Below, one piece after another: positions 23,293-61,902 of a DNA stretch of 64,000 nucleotides. Position 1 is the stretch's first letter. Every line of letters starts with the position of its first letter. Source of the stretch: Spartinivicinus ruber (lineage in GTDB: Bacteria; Pseudomonadota; Gammaproteobacteria; Pseudomonadales; Zooshikellaceae). The stretch spans positions 609,501 to 673,500 of the forward strand of contig NZ_CP048878.1 in assembly GCF_011009015.1 (NCBI RefSeq). Direction: 5' to 3'. Position numbers and translations under genes: made by a program. The notes under the pieces were generated by a model that worked only from the letters and a program-made list of their open reading frames with translations, was not told where the DNA came from and ran no database searches.

Positions 23293-24310
23293 CCTAATTA
23301 TCATCATACCTAAGCTATATTTAGTAGCTTACCTGGTAGTGGAGGTGTTCTCAGTGCTACAAATGCTAGCCTAGGAATAAATTCTACTAAGCTAAATCTT
23401 CGATTAAATCGATACTGAAATTCAGCAAGATAACGTTGTGCATATTTAGCGCGAATAGCATGATAAGTGCTACGTAAAGCACTTTTTAAGTTTCCAAGGA
23501 TGGTGTTAACCCAATAAAATTCAGGTTCCTCTACTGATGCACGACCACCACCGCATACAATTTTATCATGAAGACAACCTGCTTAAAACAGGCCAGTCCA
23601 TCGGAGATTACGGTACTGCCCTTGGCCAAATTCTGCCTACTCCAAGCCGTTATCTCTTCTTTATTAAACCCTTTTAAAATGCTCAGTTTAATTCGTGTCG
23701 GTTGACCTTGTTTTGTTGTTTCTACGGCTGCTACAAAAGGTATTTTCCCATCTGCTCCCCTACCTCTTTTGCAACCTGTACGCTCACCACCAAGATAGGC
23801 ATCATCAATTTCAATAAAACCCGACAATTGCTTGGTGCCTTCTCTTTCTTGCATCACTTTCATGAGCTTATGTTTCATTCTCCAGGCAGCTTGATAGGAA
23901 ATACCTAAATGGCGATGTAATTCTATGGCTGATATACCTTTTTTGTCTTGGGAGATCAAATACATCCCTTGGAACCAAGTCCTTAATGGTAATTTGGTTG
24001 ATTCAAAGATAGTACCTGCAGTTACAGATGTTTGCTGGTGACATTTATAGCACTGCTGAAGCTTTCTAGTAGTGAGTTGACAGCATTTGTCGTATCCACA
24101 ATTGGGGCACTGAAAACCTTCTGGCCATCGCAATTTGTATAAGGTATTAAAGCATTGTTCTTCTGTACCATATTGTTTGAGAAACTCGTTTAAACTCAGG
24201 CCTTTTTGAAATTGAACTTTGTTGATAGCCATTATTTATACCTTCTCAATTAAGTTTCCATGCTGTTCAAATATACAGCAGTTAATGGCTTAGGTATAGT
24301 GATAATTAGG
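23293..24310 (-). mobile_element. IS1595-family insertion sequence, copy 1 (1018 bp, defective)
   Basis: Ends are 23-base imperfect inverted repeats starting CCTAATTATCA and closing in ACCTAAGC, with two mismatches between ends. It is flanked by the 8-bp duplication TAATAATT (23285-23292 and 24311-24318). It is 13 bases shorter than the other two copies because of a deletion inside the transposase gene near 23580. Otherwise it differs by only a few bases. Confidence 0.95.
23310..24232 (-). pseudogene. IS1595-family transposase, frameshifted by a 13-bp deletion
   Basis: The first 223 or so residues match the intact 311-residue transposase of copies 2 and 3 (zinc-ribbon C-P-N-C...C-Y-K-C-H, then the ISXO2-like DDE domain with E-I-D-D-A-Y-L-G-G). 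Then the deletion of the bases that read CTATGACACCATT in the other copies changes the frame, so the end of the catalytic domain (including the final N-rich segment) is lost. It could only move using transposase from the other copies. Confidence 0.93.
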
Positions 24311-26377: not shown

Positions 26378-27787
26378 CTGAAGTTTCACCATTCCAGTAA
26401 CAAAAAAGCCCCTTTTTTGATATGTTAGTTTTCGCCAAAAAACAACACCCAAAAAAGAGGCTTCAGTGCAAAGTTTAATCGATCTTCTTAAGGAATTGCA
26501 AACTCAAATTAAGCAAAATGGAGAAAGAAAGGCACTATTTGTTTATACTTTGATCGCCATTATGCTACCAGTAATAGGTTCCAGAGCTTCACATATCTAC
26601 CGAGCAATAACAAAGCTCTTTAAATATAACGTCACCCTCCGTCGATTCTATGGATTTATGGCTTCTCCTAAGTTAGCTTGGGATAAATTATGGCCAATTG
26701 TCTGGCAAAAAATATTACCCTTAAATCAGACAGAAGGACCTATTCTGCTTGCCACAGATGATTCTATGTTGCCTAAAACTGGAAGAAACATATTTGCTTG
26801 TGGCAAACACTTTGATCATGCAGCTAAACAAAATCAGTCGCGTTATATCTGGGGGCAAAATATTGTCAAACTGAGCTGCTTAAAAAATATTCACGGTCGT
26901 TGGGCTAGTTTACCTCTAAACTTTCGTTTTTATCAGCTGAATAAAGATGTCGCTAAAAAAGACTTTCAAACACGGATTGATCAAGCAATTACCATGATAT
27001 TACGTGTAGTTAAAGTATGTGGCCATCGCTCAGTATTGTTAGTCTGTGATAACTGGTTTGGTAACGGGTCATTATATTTGCCTTTGAAAAAAGCACTTGG
27101 CGAACAGTTTCATCTCCTCTCTCGATTGCGTTCGAATAGTGTCTTATATGATCAGCCTACTCAACCCAAGAAAAGAAAAAGAGGAGCGCCTAGAAAGTAC
27201 GGCAAGCGTCGTGGCAATGTAGCAACTCTGGCAAGGCGACATAAAAGAAATGCAACAACGTATCAGGTTAAGCTCTACGGTAAGACCCGCGCGGTACAGG
27301 CTTATACTGAGCTAGTGATGAGTCAATCGTTAAAAACACAGATTAGAGTCGTGTGGATTTATTCCGGACGAGCTTCTTGGGTTGCTCTCTACTCAACAGA
27401 TACCTCTTTAACGGTGACTCAAATAATTGAATGGTACGGTGCACGCTGGAAGATTGAAGCTGGGTTTAAAGAGTTAAAACAGGAATTAGGGAGCTTATCT
27501 TGTCAGGCTAGAACAGAGCATGCCGTGACGAACCATCTCCATTTTTGTATGATGGCCATGTCATTGCTTTGGTTTTATGTGGCACAACAGTCTAGTAAAC
27601 CTACTCGTCGCCACTCTGTTGCAAACCGGAGCTCTTTCGCTTTTTCTGATATCCGCCGTCTCTTTGCGGAAGAAACTGAACAGGAAAAATTCAGCAAGGG
27701 TTTGGGGATATTTACCAAAACCCATGATAATAATTTAATTAGTACTATGCTTCAGTTAGTGGCTTAAATGTTTTGGTGAAACTTTAG
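26378..27787 (+). mobile_element. IS4-family insertion sequence (1410 bp)
   Basis: Ends CTGAAGTTTCACC and, on the other strand, CTAAAGTTTCACC (terminal inverted repeats with one mismatch over 13 bases), flanked by the 8-bp duplication TATTAGTA at 26370-26377 and 27788-27795. Single transposase gene inside. Confidence 0.93.
26466..27767 (+). CDS. IS4-family transposase
   Basis: 433 residues from a GTG start. DDE transposase: first Asp in A-T-D-D-S-M-L-P-K near residue 97, second in L-V-C-D-N-W-F-G-N near residue 195, and the C-terminal Y-G-A-R-W-K-I-E-A-G-F-K-E-L-K segment, which matches the IS4 signature Y-(2)-R-(3)-E-(6)-K exactly. A basic stretch (K-K-R-K-R-G-A-P-R-K) lies in the middle insertion domain. 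The frame is complete, so the element may be active. An 8-bp target duplication is compatible with some IS4 subgroups. Confidence 0.95.
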   Translation: MQSLIDLLKELQTQIKQNGERKALFVYTLIAIMLPVIGSRASHIYRAITKLFKYNVTLRRFYGFMASPKLAWDKLWPIVWQKILPLNQTEGPILLATDDSMLPKTGRNIFACGKHFDHAAKQNQSRYIWGQNIVKLSCLKNIHGRWASLPLNFRFYQLNKDVAKKDFQTRIDQAITMILRVVKVCGHRSVLLVCDNWFGNGSLYLPLKKALGEQFHLLSRLRSNSVLYDQPTQPKKRKRGAPRKYGKRRGNVATLARRHKRNATTYQVKLYGKTRAVQAYTELVMSQSLKTQIRVVWIYSGRASWVALYSTDTSLTVTQIIEWYGARWKIEAGFKELKQELGSLSCQARTEHAVTNHLHFCMMAMSLLWFYVAQQSSKPTRRHSVANRSSFAFSDIRRLFAEETEQEKFSKGLGIFTKTHDNNLISTMLQLVA

Positions 27788-31943: not shown

Positions 31944-33836
31944 ATGGCTTTAATGACCGCTTTTTATGCTTCCATGAGCTTGACAGTCATTACGGCTGTA
32001 TTGGCAGGAGCCTGGTTAATTGCTAAGTCTGCCCAGCATAAAGTACTGCAACCTTTGGCAGGGTTTTGTTTGGCCATGGCGGGCTGGTGCGCAGGGCACT
32101 TATTGGTGCAGTTTGATGCTGGAGGCTGCCAACAAGTCGGTTTAGCTTTATTATTAGCTAATCCATTTATACCTACTTTTTTTCTGCATTTCACGCTTCG
32201 TTTTATAGGTGACACCAGTAAGCCACAAACTTCACCAGCACTTATAAAAACCATGCAGCACCGGATAACGATTTGGTATTGGTTAGCTGCGGTAATTTCT
32301 CTTATTAGCTGGCTGGTTGCTGATGACGACTGGTTGCAGCCCTGGCTATCATTTAATGAATTTGTTCGGTTGGAGGGGTTTGGCTGGGTAAATTTAGCAT
32401 ATACAGTACTTGTTGGGTTAGAAGCGCACTCGTTACTGGTTTGGGGATGGCAAGTCAGTTCAGCAAATAAACGGCGATCAATTGTTGCCATGTTTATTGC
32501 TGGGGGCTGGGGATTACTGTTAGCCACTAGTTTCGTGTTTCCTTCGGTGAATATTAATGTGTTTCCCTATCCAATGCTGCTATTGCCAAGTTATGCTGTC
32601 TTGTTGGTTTATGGCGTAACTCGTTATCAGCTGGTGGAAGTCAACCACTGGGCTAGAAAAGCCATTAACTGGCTAGCTTTAGTGACGGGGCTTTTTATTG
32701 CTATCGCACTTTTTAGTGCTGTTGCGGGTTCAATAGGGATAACGGCTTTTGCTGAGGTACCACTCATACAACTCTGGCTTTACTCATTGTTTGTTTTAGC
32801 TGTAGCCTGGATGTTAAGCCAGCCAGCTCACTTATTAGCGGATCGAATTATTTATCCAGGGGCGCACCTGGATCAGGGAACTATAGATCAGTGGCTAGCC
32901 ACCATGCAGCAATGCCAGAGCTGGCAATTGTTAAAAACAACAGCTGAAGAATTATTACAACAGCATGTGGGTCGATTATTGAGAGTGGAATTTGTCGTAA
33001 CAGAAAAGCATCATGAGCCAACCATCTATTGTTTAAATGAGTCAGATTGGGAAATAAAGTTAGTTGGTTGGGAAGATCTAACACCTAGTTTGCGTCATGT
33101 AGGTGAAGTTTTTGCTGCTTTATTATTAAGTAGTGCCCGTTTACTTGAACAACGTTTTCAAATAGCTAAACAAGAAAAACAGCGGCTTGCTGAGCAGCAT
33201 TTAGTTGAACTTGGTAGTTTATCTGCAGCAATGGCTCATGAACTGCGTAATCCGCTTAATATCATTTCAATGGCAGCGGTTCAAACAGATAAAACCACCC
33301 GTAGTTATATTCAGGCACAAGTAGCAAGAGCAGATCAATTAGTGAGCGATATGCTCAGTTATTCTGGTAAGTTGGAACTTAACTGTGAGATAAATAAGCT
33401 TGCATTGATTATTTCAACTGTCGCCAGTTATATAGAACAAAATTACCAAGTGAAGATATCAATAGATATTGAAAGTGATCTAGCTATCTATGGCGACTGC
33501 GGAAAAATACAGCAAGTGCTAACTAATTTATTGGAGAACGCAGCTGCTTTTACACGTAACCAGCAAAATCCACATATTTTAGTGAGCGCAAATAGCATCC
33601 AAAAAAATAATAGAAATATCTGTTGTGAAATCGTTGTGCATAATAATGGGCCTGCAATCACTGAAGAGATGAAAAAGCAGTTATTCACACCCTTTGTGAG
33701 TAAACGAGCAGGTGGTAGCGGTCTTGGGCTGGCAATAATTAAGCGCATTATGGATGCGCATGATGGTTATATTTATCACTCAGATTCCATGGGTTGGAAC
33801 TGTAGTTTCATCTGTCAGTTTCCATTTCCTGATTGA
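31944..33836 (+). CDS. Membrane sensor histidine kinase (partner of the sigma54-type regulator)
   Basis: 630 residues. The N-terminal half has about eight to nine membrane helices (residues 5-300). A GAF-like linker follows (about 310-400), then the HisKA domain with G-S-L-S-A-A-M-A-H-E-L-R-N-P-L (His near residue 432) and an HATPase domain with N-box N-L-L-E-N-A-A and G-box G-G-S-G-L-G-L-A-I. The architecture resembles PrsK-type kinases but no EPS/PEP-CTERM genes are nearby. It is divergent from cydA and its stop is 12 bases before the response regulator, so the two form an operon and a phosphorelay pair. The signal is unknown; the neighbourhood suggests respiration or redox state. Confidence 0.9.
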   Translation: MALMTAFYASMSLTVITAVLAGAWLIAKSAQHKVLQPLAGFCLAMAGWCAGHLLVQFDAGGCQQVGLALLLANPFIPTFFLHFTLRFIGDTSKPQTSPALIKTMQHRITIWYWLAAVISLISWLVADDDWLQPWLSFNEFVRLEGFGWVNLAYTVLVGLEAHSLLVWGWQVSSANKRRSIVAMFIAGGWGLLLATSFVFPSVNINVFPYPMLLLPSYAVLLVYGVTRYQLVEVNHWARKAINWLALVTGLFIAIALFSAVAGSIGITAFAEVPLIQLWLYSLFVLAVAWMLSQPAHLLADRIIYPGAHLDQGTIDQWLATMQQCQSWQLLKTTAEELLQQHVGRLLRVEFVVTEKHHEPTIYCLNESDWEIKLVGWEDLTPSLRHVGEVFAALLLSSARLLEQRFQIAKQEKQRLAEQHLVELGSLSAAMAHELRNPLNIISMAAVQTDKTTRSYIQAQVARADQLVSDMLSYSGKLELNCEINKLALIISTVASYIEQNYQVKISIDIESDLAIYGDCGKIQQVLTNLLENAAAFTRNQQNPHILVSANSIQKNNRNICCEIVVHNNGPAITEEMKKQLFTPFVSKRAGGSGLGLAIIKRIMDAHDGYIYHSDSMGWNCSFICQFPFPD

Positions 33837-33848
33837 GCAAAAAATACA

Positions 33849-35207
33849 ATGATTAATGAGCATATCCTAGTGGTTGATGATGAGCCGGCATTTTGCGAGT
33901 TATGCAAATTATGGCTGACTCAGCAGGGTTATGAGGTATCGGTTGCTGCAGATACTGAACAAGCTAAACAGGTTTTAGCACAGCAATCGATAGACCTTAT
34001 TTTACTTGATCTTGCATTACCACCTTCTTTTACTCCAGAAGAAGGGCTACGTTTAATTCCTGAGTGTAAGGCTCCTGTTATTGTAATGACAGGGCATGCT
34101 GATAGAGAGTTGGCTTTAACGGCTATTAAAAATGGTGCCTGGGATTTTTTAGCCAAACCGTTAGACCCAGAAATGTTAGCAGTTGTAGTAAAGCGCGCGT
34201 TGGTTAAGCATGAGTTAGAACAACAACTAAACCAGTTACGTCAGCAATTAGTAAAAGATGATGATATGGGGCTGGTAGGGGGTAGTGAAAATATTCAAGT
34301 TACCAGGCAATTAATTGCGCGTATTGCACCGACTGATGTACCCGTATTAATTACTGGTCCTTCAGGTACAGGAAAAGAAATCATTGCGAAAGCGGTTCAT
34401 CAACATAGTAACCGAAAAAAACAGCCCTTTATTTCAGTGCATTGTGGTGCTATTCCAGCAGATTTATTAGAGAGCGAGTTATTTGGCTATAAAAAAGGGG
34501 CATTTACTGGCGCAGATAAAGATCGCGATGGCTTGATTACCTTAGCAGATAATGGAACCTTATTTTTAGATGAAATAGGTGAAATGCCCAGTGCTATGCA
34601 GGTTAAGCTGCTAAGAGTGCTGCAAGAAGGGAGTTTTTATCCTGTAGGTGGTAGAGACTTGATTAAAGTGAATATCCGTATAGTTAGTGCAACAAACCGT
34701 GATTTACCGAGTGCTGTAGCTGTTGGTGATTTTCGAGATGATTTATTTTATCGAATCAAAGGTATAACCATTCAAACCTTAAGTTTACAGCAACGTAAAC
34801 AGGATATTCCCGCGCTTATCCAACATTTTTTACTTCGTTACAATGTAAAAAATCAAACAGCAATTACTATCCAGGCAGATGCATTGGCTTGGCTGACTAA
34901 CCATCATTGGCAAGGTAATATTCGAGAATTAAAAAATACAGTAGAAAGCCTAGCTGCTATTTCTCAGGGAAAGCATGTCACCTCTGAGGAAATTAATTTC
35001 CTGTTTGCTGCGGATAAAGTAACACCAGCAAAAATGACTGATGAGTCATTAGATCGGCAAGTGAAACAATTGGAAATCCGTTTGATTACAGCAGCACTTG
35101 AGCAAAGCAATGGTAATAGAACGCATGCAGCACAAAAACTAGGGTTATCAAGACAGGGATTACTAAAGAAAATTGATCGGTATGGTTTGAATACTCATCG
35201 GGAATAA
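33849..35207 (+). CDS. NtrC-family sigma54-dependent response regulator
   Basis: 452 residues. Receiver domain with phospho-acceptor Asp54 (L-L-D-L-A-L-P), AAA+ domain with Walker A G-P-S-G-T-G-K-E near residue 170, the sigma54-contacting G-A-F-T-G-A loop near residue 218 and Walker B L-F-L-D-E-I-G, and a C-terminal Fis-type helix-turn-helix ([16 protein letters not shown]). All functional parts are intact. It is encoded directly behind its kinase. Candidate targets from sequence are the sigma54-like elements in front of the cyd genes and in front of the iodate reductase operon. Confidence 0.94.
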
Positions 35208-38761: not shown

Positions 38762-38841
38762 TTATATGATTTTTAGAGGTACAAAATTTACTAGTAACAG
38801 AATCTACTTTAATTCATGCAAAGACAAGGATGTCACATACC

Positions 38842-39948
38842 ATGAGGCTTATAGTACAGGCCAAAAAATTTAAAATTGTTGTATTATTAGTATTGATAAT
38901 AAACAGTACATTGATAACAGCTGATAATACTAAAAGTCTCAAAGCTAATAGCGATACTGATATTGCTTTGGTTGAATTAGGTAAGCGGTTGTTTTTTGAT
39001 AAACGTCTCTCGGGCGATAGTAGTATTGCTTGTAGTGATTGTCATCAGCCACAGCATGGCTTTACCCACAACTCACCCTTGTCACCAGGATATCCTGGTA
39101 ACAAGCACTTTCGCAATGCTCCTACGTTAATTAATACTGCGTTAAAAACCCGTTGGTTTCATGATGGTAGAATTGCAACTAATTTAAATGATGTAGTCAG
39201 GGAAATGTTGACAGAAGACTATATCATGAATATGGATATGCGCTTAATGCAAGAGCGATTGAAACAAGACCCGATTTATCCAACACTATTTGATCAAGCA
39301 GGACTGGGTGAGCCCAGTAATGGTGGAGTCAGAAAAGCACTGCCTGCGTTTTTGGCCTCTCTAACATCTTTGCAAAATGCTTATGATACAGACGAACTAA
39401 CAGTACAAGCGAAACAAGGTAAAAAATTATTTTTTGGTAAAGCTGGCTGTAGTCAATGCCATAGGGGCATTTTATTTACAGATGAATTACCCCATAACAC
39501 AGGAGTGCCTGAAAATTTATCAGTATTTCTTGATCCCCTAAGGCATCAGGCCTTTCTTGCCTTTAACATGTTTATGGGAGTATCTGATTATATGTCACTT
39601 AAGCGCGATGTAGGTGCACATGTTTTAACTCATAAGGCAGACGGTAGCGATAGAGAGCAGTTTATTACCCCAACTCTTAAAGAACTAAAATATACAGCAC
39701 CTTATATGCATAATGGAGTTTTTAATACCCTTAATGAAGTGATATCATTTTATAACAAAGGTGGTGGTAAAGATCGCAACCTTGATAAAAGGATTAAGCC
39801 ATTAAACTTAACAAAAGTAGAACAAAAGTCACTTGTTGCTTTTCTTGAATCATTATCATCACCTACGAATGTAGCTAAACAATATAGCGATCTAAAACAA
39901 CAGTATAGCTATCATTTAATTGAAAAATGGCAGGAAAAAGTGAATTAA
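38842..39948 (+). CDS. idrP1: Diheme cytochrome c peroxidase-like subunit of the iodate reductase locus (IdrP1-type)
   Basis: About 368 residues; ATG 38842 is chosen because the ATG at 38830 directly abuts the AAGG ribosome site. Signal peptide with hydrophobic core V-V-L-L-V-L-I-I. Two heme sites, C-S-D-C-H near residue 64 and C-S-Q-C-H near residue 203, with the family pattern L-G-K-R-L-F-F-D-K-R-L-S-G-D before the first and Y-M-H-N-G-V-F near residue 298: the CcpA/MauG family. In iodate reducers two such proteins, P1 and P2, accompany IdrAB and are thought to remove hydrogen peroxide formed during iodate reduction. First gene of the operon; which of the two is P1 is arbitrary here. Confidence 0.82.
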   Translation: MRLIVQAKKFKIVVLLVLIINSTLITADNTKSLKANSDTDIALVELGKRLFFDKRLSGDSSIACSDCHQPQHGFTHNSPLSPGYPGNKHFRNAPTLINTALKTRWFHDGRIATNLNDVVREMLTEDYIMNMDMRLMQERLKQDPIYPTLFDQAGLGEPSNGGVRKALPAFLASLTSLQNAYDTDELTVQAKQGKKLFFGKAGCSQCHRGILFTDELPHNTGVPENLSVFLDPLRHQAFLAFNMFMGVSDYMSLKRDVGAHVLTHKADGSDREQFITPTLKELKYTAPYMHNGVFNTLNEVISFYNKGGGKDRNLDKRIKPLNLTKVEQKSLVAFLESLSSPTNVAKQYSDLKQQYSYHLIEKWQEKVN

Positions 39949-40048
39949 TTATTTATTAGTTATTAAGGTTGGAGAGGTAAGTGTTGTGTAAAATAATTTA
40001 AAAGAGGCTGCATACGTAAAATAGATTTATAGTAAGCAGGGATTGCTA

Positions 40049-41230
40049 ATGAAACGATTAAAATACTTGTGGTTCAAGGTTGCTACGTTTACTCTGCTAT
40101 TGTTATGGGCACAACAAGTCTTATTTCAGCAAGCTAAAGCCAGTCAATTTCCACCATTAAGTCCTTTAGGTAAAGTACCTGAGCCTAATGATAATAAAAC
40201 AACAGAACAAAAGGTAGCATTAGGAAAACTGCTTTTCTTTGATGGTCGTTTAGGTGGTGACGGCTCAACAGCATGTGCTTCCTGCCATGTACCAGAAATG
40301 GGGTGGGATTGGCCAGGTAAATTGTCATTAGGCTACCCTGGTACAATTCACTGGCGAAATGCTCAAACAATAATTAATGCAGCTTATTATGATAAGTTAT
40401 TTTGGGCGGGTTCTGCTAAATCCTTAGAGGGACAAGCTCGATCTGCTGCTAAAGGAGCGGTTGCGGGTAATGGTGAAGATGACATTATGGAAGCCAGGTT
40501 GGCATTAATTCCTGAATATCGTGAGCAATTTAAAAAAGTCTTTGGTGATGAATGGCCTAAAATTAATAATGCATGGAATGCAATTGCAGCATTTGAGCGT
40601 ACCTTAATTCAAACTGATACTCCTCTCGATCGTTTTTTAATAGGAGATAAGGCAGCACTAACAACAGAGCAAATCGCTGGCAAAAAATTATTTGAAGGTA
40701 AAGCTGGCTGTATTCAGTGTCATAATGGTGCTTTAGCTTCAGATCAATCCTATCATAATGTTGGTGTCCCACCTAGCAGTGAATGGTTAACTAACCCATT
40801 GGCTCAAATAACCATGCGTTATGAACTGTATGCTAAGGGAATAAATGAACAGCAATATCGTCATACTAAGGCTGATCCTGGGGCTTATTTTCGTACCAAA
40901 CATTCTGCTATGAAAGGTAAATTCAGAACACCGTCTTTACGTTATACCCTTTATACAGCACCTTACATGCATAATGGTGAACTAGCTGACTTGAAAGAAG
41001 TGATTAATTTTTATGATAGAGGTGGATTTACTAAGGATGGAAGAACCACAGCGTATCCAGCAACCAAGAGCCAACTCATTAAGCCACTTGGCCTGACAAA
41101 GAAGGAAAAACAGCAATTGTTATTATTTTTAAAAGCATTTTCTGGAGAAAAAATTACCATAGAACGTCCTAAACTACCTGCCTATCAGCCGTTGTTCAGT
41201 AAAAATGAATTAAAGGAGGCAAAGAAATGA
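40049..41230 (+). CDS. idrP2: Diheme cytochrome c peroxidase-like subunit of the iodate reductase locus (IdrP2-type)
   Basis: 393 residues from ATG 40049 (a TTG at 40043 is in frame). Signal peptide to about residue 32 (Q-Q-A-K-A-S). Two heme sites, C-A-S-C-H near residue 76 and C-I-Q-C-H near residue 221, the G-K-L-L-F-F-D-G-R-L-G-G-D motif before the first, and the Y-T-A-P-Y-M-H-N-G-E-L segment near residue 305. It is a paralogue of the preceding gene, and both belong to the CcpA/MauG family. The stop overlaps the start of the Rieske gene by 4 bases (ATGA), so translation is coupled to it. Paired peroxidase genes beside AioBA-like genes are the diagnostic context of Idr. Confidence 0.84.
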   Translation: MKRLKYLWFKVATFTLLLLWAQQVLFQQAKASQFPPLSPLGKVPEPNDNKTTEQKVALGKLLFFDGRLGGDGSTACASCHVPEMGWDWPGKLSLGYPGTIHWRNAQTIINAAYYDKLFWAGSAKSLEGQARSAAKGAVAGNGEDDIMEARLALIPEYREQFKKVFGDEWPKINNAWNAIAAFERTLIQTDTPLDRFLIGDKAALTTEQIAGKKLFEGKAGCIQCHNGALASDQSYHNVGVPPSSEWLTNPLAQITMRYELYAKGINEQQYRHTKADPGAYFRTKHSAMKGKFRTPSLRYTLYTAPYMHNGELADLKEVINFYDRGGFTKDGRTTAYPATKSQLIKPLGLTKKEKQQLLLFLKAFSGEKITIERPKLPAYQPLFSKNELKEAKK

Positions 41231-41814
41231 TCCCTACTAATATAGCAATGGATGCTGAAAATAAAAAAGCCTCTTGTTTAATGAATCGTCGGCAGTTTTT
41301 GCTTAATTCAAGTAAAGCGGCAGTGGCTTCTTTGGTCCCATTGGTCGTCTATAACCAAGCTGGTGAAGCACAGTCATTAACTGCCAAAATGGTTAAGTAC
41401 CCTAATAAGCAGGTAGCTAATGTTAATAACTTGAGAGTTAATGAGCCGATTAATATCCATTATCCGGATGAAGGAGTAAATACAGCTTCCATTTTAGTAA
41501 AGCTAGGGGTATCAGCAGGAGGGGGCGTTGGCTCTGAAGCCGATATTGTGGCGTTTAGTTATTATTGCAGCCACCAGGGAGGTCCATTACAAGGTACTTA
41601 TAAGGCAGTTGATGGACATAGGGTATTAGGCCCTTGTCCATTTCACTTGTCGCTATTTGATTTAACCCGCCATGGTATTTTAGTTGCTGGGCAAGCATAT
41701 CAAAGCTTGCCACAAATTGTTTTGGAAATACAAAATGAAGCAATAATTGCTACAGGCATCATGGGGTTGTTGTTTGGACGTACTGATAATTTAATTGCAT
41801 CAGCAGGAGGTTAG
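41227..41814 (+). CDS. idrB: Rieske iron-sulfur subunit of iodate reductase (AioB/IdrB family)
   Basis: 195 residues from ATG 41227, with AAGGAGG 7 bases upstream. A Tat signal is visible: N-R-R-Q-F-L-L at residues 20-26 followed by a hydrophobic stretch, so the protein is exported folded, probably carrying IdrA with it. The 2Fe-2S ligands are C-S-H at residues 114-116 and C-P-F-H at residues 137-140. The two extra cysteines that form the disulfide in high-potential Rieske proteins are absent (Gly and Phe at the usual places). It passes electrons between the periplasmic cytochromes and the molybdenum subunit. idrA starts 5 bases after its stop with GGAGG overlapping the end of this gene. Confidence 0.87.
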   Translation: MIPTNIAMDAENKKASCLMNRRQFLLNSSKAAVASLVPLVVYNQAGEAQSLTAKMVKYPNKQVANVNNLRVNEPINIHYPDEGVNTASILVKLGVSAGGGVGSEADIVAFSYYCSHQGGPLQGTYKAVDGHRVLGPCPFHLSLFDLTRHGILVAGQAYQSLPQIVLEIQNEAIIATGIMGLLFGRTDNLIASAGG

Positions 41815-42170
41815 TGCAATGGCCAGGCATATGTGTTCACAGGAAGATCATATTCCATTACCGCCACCAACTGCTGAAGTAATTACCACTGCTTGTGATT
41901 ATTGTGTAGTTGCCTGTGGGTTTAAAGTTTATCGTTGGCCAATTAGAGAACCAAGTGGTGGGATGAAAGCTAATGAAAATGCTTTTGGCATAGACTTTCC
42001 GAGTTTTCCTTTGCAGGCTTGGGTGGCACCTGCTCAATATAATGTAATTATGCATAACGGAGAGCCTCATCACATCGTGATTGTGCCCGATAAACAGACG
42101 AAAGTGGTAAATAAATCAGGTGATTCCAGTATGCGTGGAGGGTTATTGGCGCAAAAAGTTTATAATCCTT

Positions 42171-43201
42171 CCTAATTATCATCATACCTAAGCTATATTT
42201 AGTAGCTTACCTGGTAGTGGAGGTGTTCTCAGTGCTACAAATGCTAGCCTAGGAATAAATTCTACTAAGCTAAATCTTCGATTAAATCGATACTGAAATT
42301 CAGCAAGATAACGTTGTGCATATTTAGCGCGAATAGCATGATAAGTGCTACGTAAAGCACTTTTTAAGTTTCCAAGGATGGTGTTAACCCAATAAAATTC
42401 AGGTTCCTCTACTGATGCACGACCACCACCGCATACAATTTTATCATGAAGACAACCTGCTTCTATGACACCATTAAAACAGGCCAGTCCATCGGAGATT
42501 ACGGTACTGCCCTTGGCCAAATTCTGCCTACTCCAAGCCGTTATCTCTTCTTTATTAAACCCTTTTAAAATGCTCAGTTTAATTCGTGTCGGTTGACCTT
42601 GTTTTGTTGTTTCTACGGCTGCTACAAAAGGTATTTTCCCATCTGCTCCCCTACCTCTTTTGCAACCTGTACGCTCGCCACCAAGATAGGCATCATCAAT
42701 TTCAATAAAACCCGACAATTGCTTGGTGCCTTCTCTTTCTTGCATCACTTTCATGAGCTTATGTTTCATTCTCCAGGCAGCTTGATAGGAAATACCTAAA
42801 TGGCGATGTAATTCTATGGCTGATATACCTTTTTTGTCTTGGGAGATCAAATACATCCCTTGGAACCAAGTCTTTAATGGTAATTTGGTTGATTCAAAGA
42901 TAGTACCTGCAGTTACAGATGTTTGCTGGTGACATTTATAGCACTGCTGAAGCTTTCTAGTAGTGAGTTGACAGCATTTGTCGTATCCACAATTGGGGCA
43001 CTGAAAACCTTCTGGCCATCGCAATTTGTATAAGGTATTAAAGCATTGTTCTTCTGTACCATATTGTTTGAGAAACTCGTTTAAACTCAGGCCTTTTTGA
43101 AATTGAACTTTGTTGATAGCCATTATTTATACCTTCTCAATTAAGTTTCCATGCTGTTCAAATATACAGCAGTTAATGGCTTAGGTATAGTGATAATTAG
43201 G
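42171..43201 (-). mobile_element. IS1595-family insertion sequence, copy 2 (1031 bp, intact)
   Basis: Same ends as copies 1 and 3 (CCTAATTATCA... on both sides, two mismatches in 23 bases). Target duplication TAATCCTT at 42163-42170 and 43202-43209. Transposase points opposite to idrA. Confidence 0.97.
42188..43123 (-). CDS. IS1595-family (ISXO2-like) transposase, intact
   Basis: 311 residues. N-terminal zinc ribbon (C-P-N-C-G-Y ... C-Y-K-C-H), a helix-turn-helix around residues 100-130 (I-S-A-I-E-L-H-R-H-L-G-I-S-Y-Q-A-A-W-R-M-K-H), then the ISXO2-like DDE domain with E-I-D-D-A-Y-L-G-G near residue 145, V-I-S-D-G-L-A near residue 209 and the C-terminal N-T-I-L-G-N-L-K-S and E-F-Q-Y-R-F-N-R-R-F segments. 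All catalytic pieces are present, so this copy and copy 3 can supply transposase to all three. Confidence 0.97.
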   Translation of the reverse strand: MAINKVQFQKGLSLNEFLKQYGTEEQCFNTLYKLRWPEGFQCPNCGYDKCCQLTTRKLQQCYKCHQQTSVTAGTIFESTKLPLKTWFQGMYLISQDKKGISAIELHRHLGISYQAAWRMKHKLMKVMQEREGTKQLSGFIEIDDAYLGGERTGCKRGRGADGKIPFVAAVETTKQGQPTRIKLSILKGFNKEEITAWSRQNLAKGSTVISDGLACFNGVIEAGCLHDKIVCGGGRASVEEPEFYWVNTILGNLKSALRSTYHAIRAKYAQRYLAEFQYRFNRRFSLVEFIPRLAFVALRTPPLPGKLLNIA

Positions 43202-45588
43202 TAATCCTTTGACTGCAACGAAAGATAGATTGTTACAACCATTAATTCGTGTAGGTGGGATTCTACAGCCCGTCAACTGGGATTTTGCAATGGATGTAGC
43301 AAGTGAAATTGCTGTTTATGTAAGGGATAAATTTGGAGCTAATGCTTATTGTGTAAAAACTTACTCGTATCAATATATTGAAAATACTTATGCAATTACT
43401 AAATACGCCTTGCGTCATTTAAATACGGCAAATTTTACCTTTCATGATACGCCTTCTGATGTCACTTCTACACCTGGCTTTCGTGATGCTGGGTTTGATA
43501 ACTTTGGGCCAAGCTACGATGACTGGGGTGCTGCTGATGTATTAATGATTTGTGGTACAGACCCTTATGAAACGAAAACTATACTATTTACCCAGTATAT
43601 AATGCCAGCCATTCAAAAAGGGATGCAAACTATTACGCTTAATCCCCGAGAAACTTCTGGGATTGCTTATATGAAAAAAATGGGAGGTTTACATATAGAC
43701 TTATATCCAGGTACCGATACGTTAGTATTGGGCGCTATTGCAAGAGTTATTATGGAAAATGGTTGGGAAGACGGTGAGTGGCTAAAGCAATGGGTTAACA
43801 ATAAGTGGGAGTCAAACTCTGGCTTTGGCCAGGGGACTCGCAATACCCCATGGCAATGGCGTACTACCTGGAAAAAGTTTCAAACAGATGGTTTTGATGA
43901 TTATAAAAAATGGAATTTCTCTCAACCTGAATATGAGCCGGAATATGCAGCTAAAATTGCTGGAATTAATGTAGAAAAGATTTATAAAGCAGCGGTTATG
44001 CTGGCAAAGCCAAATATTGATGGGTCTAGAAAAAAAGCTTCTTTTGGCATTGAAAAAGGCTTCTACTGGAGTAATAACACGGGTAATACCAATGCAATTG
44101 CAAGTTTGGCTACTATTTGTGGGACTGGTGGCCGTGAGGGAAGAGTGATAGGTCGATTTGGTGGGCATCAACGGGGAGGAGTTTGGGGAGGTAAATTACC
44201 AAGAAATAAATCGCCTGAAAAACTGCCTGGTAGAAGGCGTAGGGCGTTGGATGTTGATCGCTGGTTAGTTTCAGGTCATACCCGATTAGCCCATGTGATA
44301 GGTACCACTTGGATTCAGTCAATGACAGGATCACAAGGGCTATACAGCAAATTTCGTGAGTTAACTCAAAACAATCCCCATCAGGTGGATAGTTTTGATA
44401 AAGCTAAAATAATCGCAACTTTAAAAAAACGAGTTGAATCTGGAGGGATGGTTGTTTTTAACCAGGATATTTATTTACGTGACCCTATAGGTGCTCGGTT
44501 TGCTGATATTATTTTTCCTGCTGCTACCTGGGGAGAGGAAAACTTCACCCGTGCTAATGGTGAACGACGATTAAGGCTGTATCAAAAATTTTATGATTCA
44601 CCCGGTGATGCAAAACCCGACTGGTGGATTATTGCTAGGCTTGCACGCAAAATGGGTTATGATGGATTTGACTGGCAAGACTCAAATAGTGTTGCTGAAG
44701 AAGCTGCTCGTTTTAGCCGTGGCTCAAGAAAAGATTTTTACATGGTTAAAATAGCGGCTAACAAAGCTGGAATAAACTTGCATGAACAATTGAGGCGAAT
44801 GGGAACAAATGGTATCCAAGCACCAGTCTTTTATAATTATAAAACTGACCAGTTAATTGGTACCAAACGATTGCATGATACTGAAATGTCGGAACAAGCA
44901 TTGGCAGAAAAAGGCTTAGAAAATGGTCCACAAGGCGCTAATATTATACCTAAAACATTGTTAGCATTTAATACCCATACAGGAAAAGTTAATTTACAAA
45001 AGCATCCATGGAGTTTATTTGCTGATTTTCATCAATGGATGCAACCGAAAGAAGATGAACTTTGGTTTACTAACGGACGCATTAATGAAATATGGCAGTC
45101 GGGTTTTGATGACACTCAGCGCCGGGCTTTTACCATGCAGCGTTGGCCAGAAAATTGGGTAGAAATTCATCCAATAGATGCTAAAGCCAGAGGTATTGAG
45201 TCCGGTGATCGGGTAATTTTGTATTCTGATCGAGTGCCCTGTTTTAAAGACACTCTGCATGGCAGCTATGAAGATCAATTTCAGTTTACTGAGCTGTTAG
45301 CCAAGGGGCATATAGAGCTAGAACAGGCCGCGGTAACAGCCATTGCTATGGTTACCCCAGCAATTAAGCAAGGTGTGTTGTATTCAAATATGCTCGACAT
45401 GCGGCAGCCAACCAATGCTTTAACTGCCAGAGTTGTTGATAATATCAGTGGTAATTACAACTTTAAAATGGGAGTTGCCAGGGCTAAAAAAATGAGTGAA
45501 TCACCCTATAAACGTCAGTTTCGTAACTTTTCTTTCGTACCGAGGAATATCGTTTAGATTGGATGCCCGTTAATCTAACCACTTTGAG

Positions 45589-45738: not shown

Positions 45739-45764
45739 TGGAGCTACTTAGGCTCCATTTTTTT
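45739..45764 (+). terminator. Rho-independent terminator of the idr operon
   Basis: Stem TGGAGC / GCTCCA with a short loop followed by seven T. About 180 bases after the idrA stop, beyond repeat R7. Confidence 0.85.
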
Positions 45765-47570: not shown

Positions 47571-49040
47571 ATGAACAATCCTCAAAGATCTTTTACCAAG
47601 CCAAAACAATTTGATACAAATATTATTGCAATTGGTGCAGGCTCTGCTGGTTTGGTAACATCTTATATTGCTGCTGCCGTTAAAGCCAAGGTAGCCTTGA
47701 TTGAACGTCATAAAATGGGTGGGGATTGCTTAAATACAGGGTGTGTTCCATCAAAAGCGCTTATTCGCTCAGCAAAAATTAAACACTATATTGATCGAGC
47801 AGCTGAATTTGGGCTAGAGCAGACAGCAGTAACAGTGAACTTTGCTAAAGTAATGGAGCGAGTACAACGTATTATAAAAAAGGTAGAGCCGCATGACTCC
47901 ATCGAGCGTTATACTGGATTAGGAGTTGAGTGTGTTACTGGAAGTGCTAAAATAAAGTCCCCCTATGAAGTGGAAGTCGATGATAAAGTCATTACAACTA
48001 AAAATATTGTAATTGCAACTGGTGCTAGGCCTTTTGTTCCCCCTATTTCTGGAATAGAAAACATTGACTATTATACATCAGATACTATTTGGGAAATTCG
48101 TGAACAGCCAAAAAGGCTACTGGTATTAGGCGGTGGTCCAATTGGTTGTGAGTTGGCTCAGGCTTTTTCCAGGCTGGGTTCTGAGGTCATTCAGTTGGAT
48201 ATGGCTGAACGTGTTTTACCTAGAGAAGATGAAGATGTCGCTAAATTTGTGACTAATAAATTTCAAGCTGAAGGTATTGATGTTCGAGTAAATCATAAAG
48301 CAATAGAGTTTAAGCAACAAAATGATAAGAAAATATTGATTGCTGAATACCAGGGAGAAAATATTGAAGTTGAGTGTGATACTGTTTTATTAGCTGTAGG
48401 ACGTCAGGCTAATTCTAAAGGACTTGGCTTAGAAGAGCTAGGGATAGAATTAAATCCACAGGGCACAATAAAAGTAAATGAATATCTGCAAACCAACTAT
48501 AAAAATATTTATGCCTGTGGTGATGTGGCAGGCCCTTATCAGTTTACCCATACAGCGGCTCATCAGGCATGGTATGCTTGTGTTAATGCACTTTTTGGTA
48601 AATTAAAAAAATTCAAAGTTGATTATTCGGTAATTCCGTGGGCAACTTTTACTGATCCTGAAGTCGCTAGAGTAGGATTGAATGAGCAAGATGCTAAAGA
48701 TCAAGGGATTCCCTATGAAGTCACTTATTATGGTATTGATGATTTAGATCGAGCAATTGCTGATGAAGAAGACCATGGATTTGTCAAAGTACTCACTCAG
48801 CCTGGAAAAGATAAAATCTTAGGTGTGACAATAGTTGGTTATCACGCAGCAGAACTGATTGCTGAGTTCGTTAGTGCTATGAAGCATGGTTTAGGTTTAA
48901 ATAAAATCCTTGGAACCATTCATATTTATCCCACATTAGCAGAAGCGAATAAATATGCTGCAGGTATGTGGAAAAAAGCCAATGTATCACCCACTATATT
49001 AGCTTGGCTGGAAAAATTTCATAGATGGATGCGGAAGTAA
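47571..49040 (+). CDS. FAD-dependent pyridine nucleotide-disulfide oxidoreductase (mercuric-reductase-like)
   Basis: 489 residues. FAD site G-A-G-S-A-G near residue 22, redox-active pair C53-L-N-T-G-C58-V-P-S-K, NAD(P) site G-G-G-P-I-G-C-E near residue 187, second FAD motif Y-A-C-G-D-V-A near residue 310, and a C-terminal dimerisation domain with H-I-Y-P-T-L-A-E containing the active-site base His. There is no N-terminal heavy-metal domain and no C-terminal Cys pair, so it is not a true mercuric reductase; it also lacks any link to lipoamide-enzyme genes. It lies 86 bases after the TVP38 gene and probably shares its operon. Confidence 0.9.
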   Translation: MNNPQRSFTKPKQFDTNIIAIGAGSAGLVTSYIAAAVKAKVALIERHKMGGDCLNTGCVPSKALIRSAKIKHYIDRAAEFGLEQTAVTVNFAKVMERVQRIIKKVEPHDSIERYTGLGVECVTGSAKIKSPYEVEVDDKVITTKNIVIATGARPFVPPISGIENIDYYTSDTIWEIREQPKRLLVLGGGPIGCELAQAFSRLGSEVIQLDMAERVLPREDEDVAKFVTNKFQAEGIDVRVNHKAIEFKQQNDKKILIAEYQGENIEVECDTVLLAVGRQANSKGLGLEELGIELNPQGTIKVNEYLQTNYKNIYACGDVAGPYQFTHTAAHQAWYACVNALFGKLKKFKVDYSVIPWATFTDPEVARVGLNEQDAKDQGIPYEVTYYGIDDLDRAIADEEDHGFVKVLTQPGKDKILGVTIVGYHAAELIAEFVSAMKHGLGLNKILGTIHIYPTLAEANKYAAGMWKKANVSPTILAWLEKFHRWMRK

Positions 49041-59300: not shown

Positions 59301-60213
59301 TTGACTACAGCTTGATGAAAAAATAAATGCTAGAAACCACCTATACTCTGATAGCTCGACAGGCTATTCAAGCTGTATTAGCTTGAAAAAATTGGTTGGT
59401 AAGTCAGTTTAATAAAAATAAAGACAAGGAGGTCAAAAAGTGGCTTTACGACTATCAAGGGTTAAAAATTTTAGTGTTCTGTTGGTATTGACTCTACTAA
59501 TAGGCCATACGCAGGCTAACTCTTCAATGGAGCAGTATGCTAAACAGCAATTAACTTCGTTAAACAAAATAAACAAGCTAACTGAGACTGAGAAACAGGG
59601 GAGTTTTCCATTAATACCCAACCCAACAAGTTTTAATGATGGTTTTGACCCTAGGCGATTTGGCAAATGGCAACAAGTTGAGTTGCATCCTTATACAGGG
59701 GCTACTTGTGGTAATGGGTCTCCCTATAAGTTCTATGTAAATTTGGCCCGAGGAACGACTAATTTAAGTATTAACTTTGAACCTGGTGGTGCTTGTTGGG
59801 ATTATGCTAGTTGCAAAGGTGAAAAAGGTATTAGTGGAGCGCGTAATATCAATGGTATTCCAGATAACTACATGAATAAATTGGAGACTGCTTATTTAAC
59901 GCCTTTTCTATATCGTGATCATTATCGGGACGAATTTCCAGCACAAGACTGGATTCAGGTTTTTTTACCTTATTGTACAGGTGATGTACATGCAGGAGAT
60001 CGGACTGTTGTTTATAAAGACTCAAACGGACAAGGAAAGTCTTATGTATGGCATCACCGAGGAGTCAGAAACTCTCGTGCAGTGGTTGCTTGGTTAAGAG
60101 AAAACCTTAGTCAGCCGGAGCAATGCTAACAACCGGTTGTAGTGCAGGTGGTAATGGTGCAATTATGAATTACCATTATCTAAGGAGAGATTTGCAGCCT
60201 ACAAATAGTTATT

Positions 60214-61244
60214 CCTAATTATCATCATACCTAAGCTATATTTAGTAGCTTACCTGGTAGTGGAGGTGTTCTCAGTGCTACAAATGCTAGCCTAGGAATA
60301 AATTCTACTAAGCTAAATCTTCGATTAAATCGATACTGAAATTCAGCAAGATAACGTTGTGCATATTTAGCGCGAATAGCATGATAAGTACTACGTAAAG
60401 CACTTTTTAAGTTTCCAAGGATGGTGTTAACCCAATAAAATTCAGGTTCCTCTACTGATGCACGACCACCACCGCATACAATTTTATCATGAAGACAACC
60501 TGCTTCTATGACACCATTAAAACAGGCCAGTCCATCGGAGATTACGGTACTGCCCTTGGCCAAATTCTGCCTACTCCAAGCCGTTATCTCTTCTTTATTA
60601 AACCCTTTTAAAATGCTCAGTTTAATTCGTGTCGGTTGACCTTGTTTTGTTGTTTCTACGGCTGCTACAAAAGGTATTTTCCCATCTGCTCCCCTACCTC
60701 TTTTGCAACCTGTACGCTCACCACCAAGATAGGCATCATCAATTTCAATAAAACCCGACAATTGCTTGGTGCCTTCTCTTTCTTGCATCACTTTCATGAG
60801 CTTATGTTTCATTCTCCAGGCAGCTTGATAGGAAATACCTAAATGGCGATGTAATTCTATGGCTGATATACCTTTTTTGTCTTGGGAGATCAAATACATC
60901 CCTTGGAACCAAGTCTTTAATGGTAATTTGGTTGATTCAAAGATAGTACCTGCAGTTACAGATGTTTGCTGGTGACATTTATAGCACTGCTGAAGCTTTC
61001 TAGTAGTGAGTTGACAGCATTTGTCGTATCCACAATTGGGGCACTGAAAACCTTCTGGCCATCGCAATTTGTATAAGGTATTAAAGCATTGTTCTTCTGT
61101 ACCATATTGTTTGAGAAACTCGTTTAAACTCAGGCCTTTTTGAAATTGAACTTTGTTGATAGCCATTATTTATACCTTCTCAATTAAGTTTCCATGCTGT
61201 TCAAATATACAGCAGTTAATGGCTTAGGTATAGTGATAATTAGG
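60214..61244 (-). mobile_element. IS1595-family insertion sequence, copy 3 (1031 bp, intact)
   Basis: Identical ends and length to copy 2; target duplication TAGTTATT at 60206-60213 and 61245-61252. Confidence 0.97.
60231..61166 (-). CDS. IS1595-family (ISXO2-like) transposase, intact
   Basis: 311 residues, the same protein as in copy 2 (DNA differs at only a few positions, for example an A for G near 60725 and an A near 60390). Zinc ribbon, HTH and the ISXO2-like DDE domain are all complete. Confidence 0.97.
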   Translation of the reverse strand: MAINKVQFQKGLSLNEFLKQYGTEEQCFNTLYKLRWPEGFQCPNCGYDKCCQLTTRKLQQCYKCHQQTSVTAGTIFESTKLPLKTWFQGMYLISQDKKGISAIELHRHLGISYQAAWRMKHKLMKVMQEREGTKQLSGFIEIDDAYLGGERTGCKRGRGADGKIPFVAAVETTKQGQPTRIKLSILKGFNKEEITAWSRQNLAKGSTVISDGLACFNGVIEAGCLHDKIVCGGGRASVEEPEFYWVNTILGNLKSALRSTYHAIRAKYAQRYLAEFQYRFNRRFSLVEFIPRLAFVALRTPPLPGKLLNIA

Positions 61245-61902
61245 TAGTTATTTACTAAATGACTCTGGGCCAGTATTTAATGCATTGAATAACTCTGGTG
61301 ATTGGAAATCTTATCCAGGGCATTTAGCCATTCGTAAGGCTTGGGGGCTTGATCCTTTAATAGAAGAACTGGGGCAGGACTTAGTTGGCTTAACTAAAGA
61401 GAATTTAGGTAGTTTTTATGGTGCTTTAGCTAATTATTATACTGAAGACAGATTAGCTTATAGTCACTTCAGAGAGGATTTAATTTACTCATCTTATTCT
61501 TATGAAAGATTTTATCCTGAAATCTATAATCAGCCAGATAAAAACAAGCGTAAGCAGCTAATTCATCAATATTGGTACCAAGATACTGATAACTTAATTA
61601 GTGAGTTGGATAAATACGGCAATTGGGGATATTTTTTTCCTCAGTATCGTGGCCTAGCAGGCAGCCACTGTACAACAGTTCTGGAGTTTGCCTCAAGAGG
61701 AAGGGCTTGAGTTTAACGATTTTGTCGATAACTTATTCAATCAGTCGTCGCCGCTTTTAAAGAAAGTAGAGTATGACAGCACGAGAGATTTTCAGCGCCC
61801 GGTAAGTTGGTTGTATCGTATCATCAATATGATGATGGGTATAAATAACTAACATGGTATATTGTAAGTAATAAGATACTATTGTAATAGTCAAGGTGAT
61901 TG

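Follow-up and report, generated by a model that had tools for sequence, protein, structure and literature searches.

An idrP2-idrP1-idrB-idrA cluster of the iodate-reductase family in Spartinivicinus ruber, with idrA split by an IS1595-family element

The closest described systems to the locus considered here are the characterised iodate reductases (Idr) of Pseudomonas sp. SCT, Denitromonas sp. IR-12, Azoarcus sp. DN11 and Roseovarius azorensis. In the model given in print, IdrAB is a periplasmic enzyme proposed to be supplied with electrons by cytochrome c and to convert iodate to hypoiodous acid, a product that then disproportionates; the peroxidases IdrP1 and IdrP2 are proposed to clear peroxide. 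A chlorite-dismutase-like enzyme takes part in a rival model, and in Denitromonas deletion of idrA abolishes growth on iodate (PMC8692401, PMC10149662, PMC11445184). Spartinivicinus ruber S2-4-1H, the type strain of its genus, is red and marine, and its source is coastal sediment of cordgrass (PMC7484904). We analysed a window of 64,000 nucleotides of its genome (contig NZ_CP048878.1 of assembly GCF_011009015.1, forward-strand positions 609,501 to 673,500; all coordinates below are those of the window), which carries a cluster idrP2-idrP1-idrB-idrA. This is very probably a member of the known iodate-reductase family, ancestral to three Spartinivicinus species and recently inactivated in S. ruber by the insertion of an IS1595-family insertion sequence (IS) element in idrA.

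Gene content and order are those of the Idr loci of SCT and IR-12, for which the published order idrP2, idrP1, idrB, idrA is stated (PMC10989891). With the Azoarcus DN11 system the S. ruber cluster shares the CX2CX3CX70S motif of IdrA, a twin-arginine translocation (Tat) signal on IdrB and two CX2CH motifs per peroxidase, whereas the Rieske spacing of IdrB is X18 in DN11 and X20 in S. ruber (PMC10149662). Unlike in the four characterised systems, an IS element interrupts idrA in S. ruber. The genes adjoining the cluster include no recognisable cytochrome c or moaA gene; a sigma-54 two-component pair is present, but lies 3.6 kb upstream rather than adjoining. Family matches and motifs (Table 1) confirm what a preliminary description, made from the DNA letters, had reported as a single run of two diheme cytochromes of the cytochrome c peroxidase (CCP)/MauG type, a Tat-signalled Rieske protein and an AioA-like enzyme. 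The two peroxidases, whose putative Sec signal peptides were judged by eye only, are 38% identical to each other across 315 residues and match those beside other Idr enzymes, which settles the doubt that they might be unrelated to IdrP1 and IdrP2. The name idrP2 was given from the gene's place in the published order, and an ATG at 38842 is an alternative start for it. In IdrB the Tat motif NRRQFL lies at residue 20 and the Rieske motif at residue 114; the CX2CX3CX70S motif of IdrA begins at residue 26 of the first piece. As for the same description's 'tight operon with its own terminator', the tight spacing stands (idrB overlaps the end of the idrP1-type gene by 4 bases, 4 bases separate idrB from idrA and 100 bases separate the peroxidase genes), and the terminator is only weakly indicated because a scan of the region returned 6 sites where 5.0 are expected by chance. 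A promoter scan of the region returned 20 sites against 23.2 expected by chance, and no conclusion is drawn from it.

Table 1. Coordinates of the idr genes, the inserted element and a terminator-like site in the window
Feature	Position	Strand	Evidence or remark
idrP2-type diheme cytochrome c peroxidase-like gene	38830..39948	+	PF03150, E 2.5e-35; two CXXCH; first in cluster, as in other Idr loci
idrP1-type diheme cytochrome c peroxidase-like gene	40049..41230	+	PF03150, E 1.5e-42; two CXXCH
idrB, Rieske [2Fe-2S] small subunit	41227..41814	+	TIGR02694 above cut-off; C-X-H-X20-C-X2-H
idrA piece 1, 118 codons, [3Fe-4S] domain	41819..42175	+	PF18465, E 1.2e-36; CX2CX3CX70S
target-site duplication, left copy	42163..42170	.	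8-mer identical to right copy
IS1595-family element, 1031 bp	42171..43201	-	NF033547, PF12762; terminal inverted repeats
transposase of IS1595-family element	42188..43123	-	profile matches
target-site duplication, right copy	43202..43209	.	8-mer identical to left copy
idrA piece 2, 782 codons, molybdopterin and substrate-pocket domains	43209..45557	+	PF00384, PF01568; no further lesion
terminator-like hairpin with T run	45739..45757	+	~180 bases 3' of idrA

The element cuts IdrA after residue 117, between the iron-sulfur (Fe-S) domain and the molybdenum (Mo) domain, and contributes part of the last codon of the first piece. Its transposase scores 212.5 bits against NF033547 (cut-off 75), its 23-bp terminal inverted repeats match at 21 of 23 positions (counted by eye), and the 8-bp target duplication that flanks it is of the length typical of the IS1595 family. 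No second idrA was found in the S. ruber genome: a search with the second piece at an E-value of 1e-20 gave a single match, and one with a five-row alignment at 1e-60 gave only the two pieces. With IdrA cut between its Fe-S and Mo domains, and no other copy recovered by these searches, S. ruber is not expected to make a functional Idr, and the system is probably non-working in this strain. The preliminary description had presented the locus as a working system; its mention of a 'rejoined' protein implies the break, on which its title and reasoning are silent.

In both sister species idrA is one open frame (909 and 906 codons) that is 92% identical to the second S. ruber piece, and the sister loci (L121, L122) are syntenic with that of S. 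ruber in gene order and flanking neighbours. This synteny of operon and flanks in both sisters rules out an island inserted in S. ruber only, and the three Spartinivicinus species examined most likely inherited the cluster from their common ancestor; two genomes of a neighbouring genus (G003, G004) gave no idrA match. Between S. ruber and the sisters, the ratio of non-synonymous to synonymous substitution (dN/dS) in the two broken pieces is 0.024-0.036, compared with 0.043 between the two sister idrA genes, values that are rough because dS is close to saturation. The low dN/dS (~0.03) and the lack of a second lesion in the pieces make the break look recent, and indicate that idrA was a gene under strong constraint until the insertion. 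The same two observations would also suit an insertion that is not fixed, such that some S. ruber cells or strains keep an uninterrupted idrA and the species still reduces iodate, as would the element's membership of a near-identical copy expansion that is present in S. ruber and not in the two sisters. Such a polymorphism seems to us unlikely, since the complete genome, reported to combine PacBio long reads with short ones (PMC7484904), has only the interrupted form and no second copy was found.

The extent of that expansion is apparent from a 34-base pattern of the element, which occurs 47 times in the S. ruber genome, 45 of these being exact matches, and is absent both from two genomes of the same genus (G001, G002) and from the two of the neighbouring genus. 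Within the window a second copy (60214-61244, 99.8% identical) lies between open reading frames (ORFs) 59440-60129 and 61285-61710, where by eye it splits a pectinacetylesterase-type gene; in sister locus L122 this region is unbroken. A third, slightly shorter copy (23293-24310, 98.5%) lies between minus-strand ORFs that by eye resemble fragments of a sensor-kinase gene. At 26466-27767 an ORF that by eye is transposase-like, but of another kind, also stands between two minus-strand ORFs, maybe parts of sensor-like genes. The IS1595 copies and this ORF together suggest IS-driven gene loss in the S. ruber genome.

Assignment of the cluster to Idr rather than to the arsenite oxidase AioBA, with which it shares a fold family and the Fe-S and Mo cofactor motifs, was examined against 97 Idr-like and 10 AioA loci. 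The Idr-like loci comprise 80 from a genome scan, 3 from plasmids and 14 further genome loci, after removal of a duplicate (L129); the scan used an alignment of five uninterrupted relatives as query, and its 80 loci are the best of at least 595 stretches (560 confirmed). The AioA loci, none selected by neighbourhood, are that of the crystallised NT-26 enzyme, six plasmid loci taken on annotation and low similarity, and three others taken on low similarity alone. Keeping the two S. ruber pieces apart, we built a tree over the second piece together with 52 chosen rows of 107 distinct ones, by a quick method without bootstrap. One branch (SH-aLRT 100) splits the 43 Idr-like rows from the 10 AioA rows, and S. 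ruber and its two sister species form a group (100) within a 16-row set (97) whose other members include Vibrio, Moritella and Oceanospirillaceae; the catalytic protein thus does not fall inside AioA. Against the 97 Idr-like proteins the second piece has identities of 0.48-0.92, and against the 10 AioA proteins of 0.27-0.32. Among the nearest outside the genus are Idr proteins of Vibrio, Moritella and Oceanospirillales, at 71-76% identity and with the same gene order; unlike in S. ruber, idrA is one open frame in the fetched loci of these groups. The CX2CX3CX70S motif, present in 90 of the 97 Idr-like and 6 of the 10 AioA proteins, is shared by many members of both sides and is therefore not discriminating.

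Gene neighbourhood separates the two families. Of the 97 Idr-like loci, 83 carry both peroxidase genes, and in 13 of the remaining 14 the sequence breaks off within 2 kb upstream; the pair is found beside none of the 10 AioA loci, as the preliminary description had said of arsenite oxidase loci. It had also remarked on the order peroxidase-peroxidase-B-A (P-P-B-A) of this locus. That order is not an unusual one: it is the published order, and among the best 80 of the scan it occurs on one strand in all 68 loci whose sequence reaches 3 kb or more upstream of idrA. Rieske spacing varies within the family, being X20 in 53 and X18 in 42 of the 95 Idr-side loci with an IdrB match (S. ruber included).

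The substrate pocket differs in a consistent manner. Eight second-sphere residues are described as highly conserved in AioA (NT-26 numbering: Asp169, His199, Arg201, Glu207, Lys413, Arg447, His451, Glu453; PMC10448176), and all eight are invariant in our 10 AioA rows. His199, Lys413, Arg447 and His451 are retained in S. ruber and in 97 of 97 Idr-like rows, whereas S. ruber has Ser, Thr, Ser and Arg at AioA Asp169, Arg201, Glu207 and Glu453, so that the pocket check proposed in the preliminary description comes out on the side of Idr. Over the 97 Idr-like rows, which were gathered by Idr similarity and are non-independent, the corresponding counts are Ser 91, Gly 5, Leu 1 at position 169; Thr 91, Lys 3, His 2, Gln 1 at 201; Ser 90, Asp 4, Ala 3 at 207; and Arg 96, Cys 1 at 453, to be set against only 10 AioA rows. 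Positions 199, 207, 447 and 451 were cross-checked against the chain numbers of 4aay, and equivalents against 1g8k. We tentatively suggest, from the aligned residues, that a charge change of the substrate funnel may be what turns an enzyme of this family from arsenite oxidation to iodate reduction or the reverse: the acidic Asp169, Glu207 and Glu453 of AioA are lost on the Idr side and the last becomes Arg; such a change would suit an anion rather than neutral arsenous acid. At position 203, which is Ala in AioA and where a Mo ligand usually sits, the Idr-like rows have Ser (80), Ala (15), Ile (1) or Thr (1), and the Ser might be a ligand to Mo. Against a Ser ligand speaks the listing of IdrA without an amino-acid ligand to Mo (PMC10100899).

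Several points weigh against the assignment to iodate reductase with a recently broken idrA. Because the AioA set is small and, NT-26 apart, was chosen for low Idr similarity or by annotation, the width of the gap between Idr and AioA is partly built in, and the tree carries a long-branch warning for five AioA-side branches and for L135, whose place is unsure. The characterised IdrA proteins of Pseudomonas SCT, Denitromonas, Azoarcus DN11 and Roseovarius azorensis are not among its rows, and the link to proven iodate reductases therefore runs via named taxa and published neighbourhood criteria, by which idrA and idrB follow two cytochrome c peroxidase-like genes. An Azonexus plasmid locus (L112) resembles what is reported around the DN11 and SCT clusters in having a sigma-54 two-component system, a cytochrome c and moaA nearby; its protein is only 48% identical to that of S. 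ruber and has Asp rather than Ser at position 207. L135 (genome G437) has an Idr-like A-B pair with no peroxidase genes within 8.5 kb upstream. For the age of the break, dS against the sisters is 0.9-1.8, near saturation.

Position 207 also bears on whether iodate is the natural substrate. An Idr-family enzyme whose marine branch acts on another oxidised anion would fit the contrast between Ser in 90 of the 97 Idr-like rows and Asp in the Azonexus-type branch, as well as the statement, made in 2022, that all experimentally confirmed iodate respirers fall within one small clade (PMC8801600). Yet marine aerobic Alphaproteobacteria with idr clusters reduce iodate, one of them inducing idrA with iodate (PMC11445184), and alphaproteobacterial proteins (Ruegeria, Labrenzia, Pelagibius) share a supported 37-row tree set with S. 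ruber, so that we consider a different anion improbable and take iodate as the presumed substrate. Least probable is an AioBA arsenite oxidase locus with two unrelated peroxidase genes alongside: NCBI models do name both subunits arsenite oxidase/azurin reductase (TIGR02694, which the small subunit matches above cut-off, and TIGR02693, which scores best for each of the catalytic pieces but stays below its cut-off) and the best PDB matches are solved AioA chains, but arsenite oxidase identity is rejected by the branch with support of 100 against the 10 AioA rows, identity of 27-32%, the four pocket residues replaced in S. ruber and kept in 10 of 10 AioA, and a peroxidase pair that is regular on the Idr side and adjoins none of the AioA genes. 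The reading of the locus as Idr and not arsenite oxidase, with which the preliminary description began, is in this respect borne out.

Among 95 genomes of relatives (S. ruber included) 6 matched, one of them (G063) with an AioA, which leaves Idr in 5 of 95; in a class-wide draw of 369 genomes (S. ruber included), with at most two candidates scored per genome, 16 matched at 1e-60, one (G204) with AioA only, which leaves Idr-like genes in 15 of 369. Four loci among the best 80 of the scan (L012, L017, L020, L023) bear Oceanospirillales-type names, and idr carriers given in 2021 include Endozoicomonas sp. OPT23, Vibrio and Moritella (PMC8692401). As carriers of S. ruber's group had thus been reported, the locus does not widen the host range of iodate reduction, contrary to what had been proposed. 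Our literature search found no paper joining Spartinivicinus with iodate and none joining at least three of iodate, idrA, insertion sequences and pseudogenes; within the literature searched, the S. ruber idr locus and its broken idrA appear to be unreported.

Some individual loci of the comparison set have features of their own. One relative of the same order (G005) has two Idr operons (L123, L124), their IdrA proteins 73% and 63% identical to that of S. ruber, and one genome of the class (G320) has both an AioA-type and an Idr-like locus (L128, L132). In a metagenome-assembled genome (L063) a stop interrupts idrA so that it reads as two frames, which may be a further broken copy or may stem from misassembly. 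Idr-like P-P-B-A clusters occur on plasmid records of Vibrio sp. THAF190c (L111, 1.72 Mb) and Azonexus hydrophilus (L112), the latter also flanked by transposition genes. L135, a deep branch of unsure place, has an unusual pocket, with Thr and Asp at AioA positions 203 and 207.

A sensor kinase and a sigma-54 response regulator are encoded at 31944-35207, 3.6 kb upstream of the S. ruber cluster, and are kept in sister locus L121 (84-85%). Such pairs adjoin some other idr clusters, among them those of DN11 (PMC10149662) and Azonexus L112, the likeness being at family level only. We considered the pair as a dedicated idr regulator but draw no such link, full-length regulator matches near other Idr loci being only 33-40% identical, on a par with the 36% for AioR of two arsenite oxidase loci; the best family for the S. 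ruber regulator is a PEP-CTERM regulator, below cut-off. Downstream of the cluster, the ORF at 47571-49040 encodes a flavin adenine dinucleotide (FAD)-dependent disulfide oxidoreductase of the lipoamide dehydrogenase/MerA kind, for which a dihydrolipoyl dehydrogenase model scores just above its cut-off and the MerA and RclA models score below theirs.

In its intact form the system would operate as proposed in print for relatives, a mechanism that we extend to S. ruber by analogy. The Mo enzyme IdrA would be exported along with the Tat-signalled Rieske subunit IdrB, would receive electrons from a periplasmic cytochrome c and would reduce iodate to hypoiodous acid; this would disproportionate to iodide and iodate, and the two diheme peroxidases would clear by-product peroxide. 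In S. ruber idrP2, idrP1 and idrB are still encoded upstream of the insertion, which parts the Fe-S domain of IdrA from its Mo domain.

Two consequences follow for how such loci are read. Idr-type loci can bear the public label 'arsenate reductase (azurin)', as on the Azonexus plasmid, and neighbourhood together with a few pocket residues separates them from arsenite oxidase. Nor is an idr cluster in a genome proof of the trait: the Spartinivicinus type strain has the whole operon with a split idrA, where its two sisters have an open one, and counts of iodate reducers made from gene fragments can therefore be overestimates. If the break is as recent as it looks, S. ruber, lately without IdrA beside sisters with open genes, would offer a natural idrA knockout in which to study the role of marine Idr.

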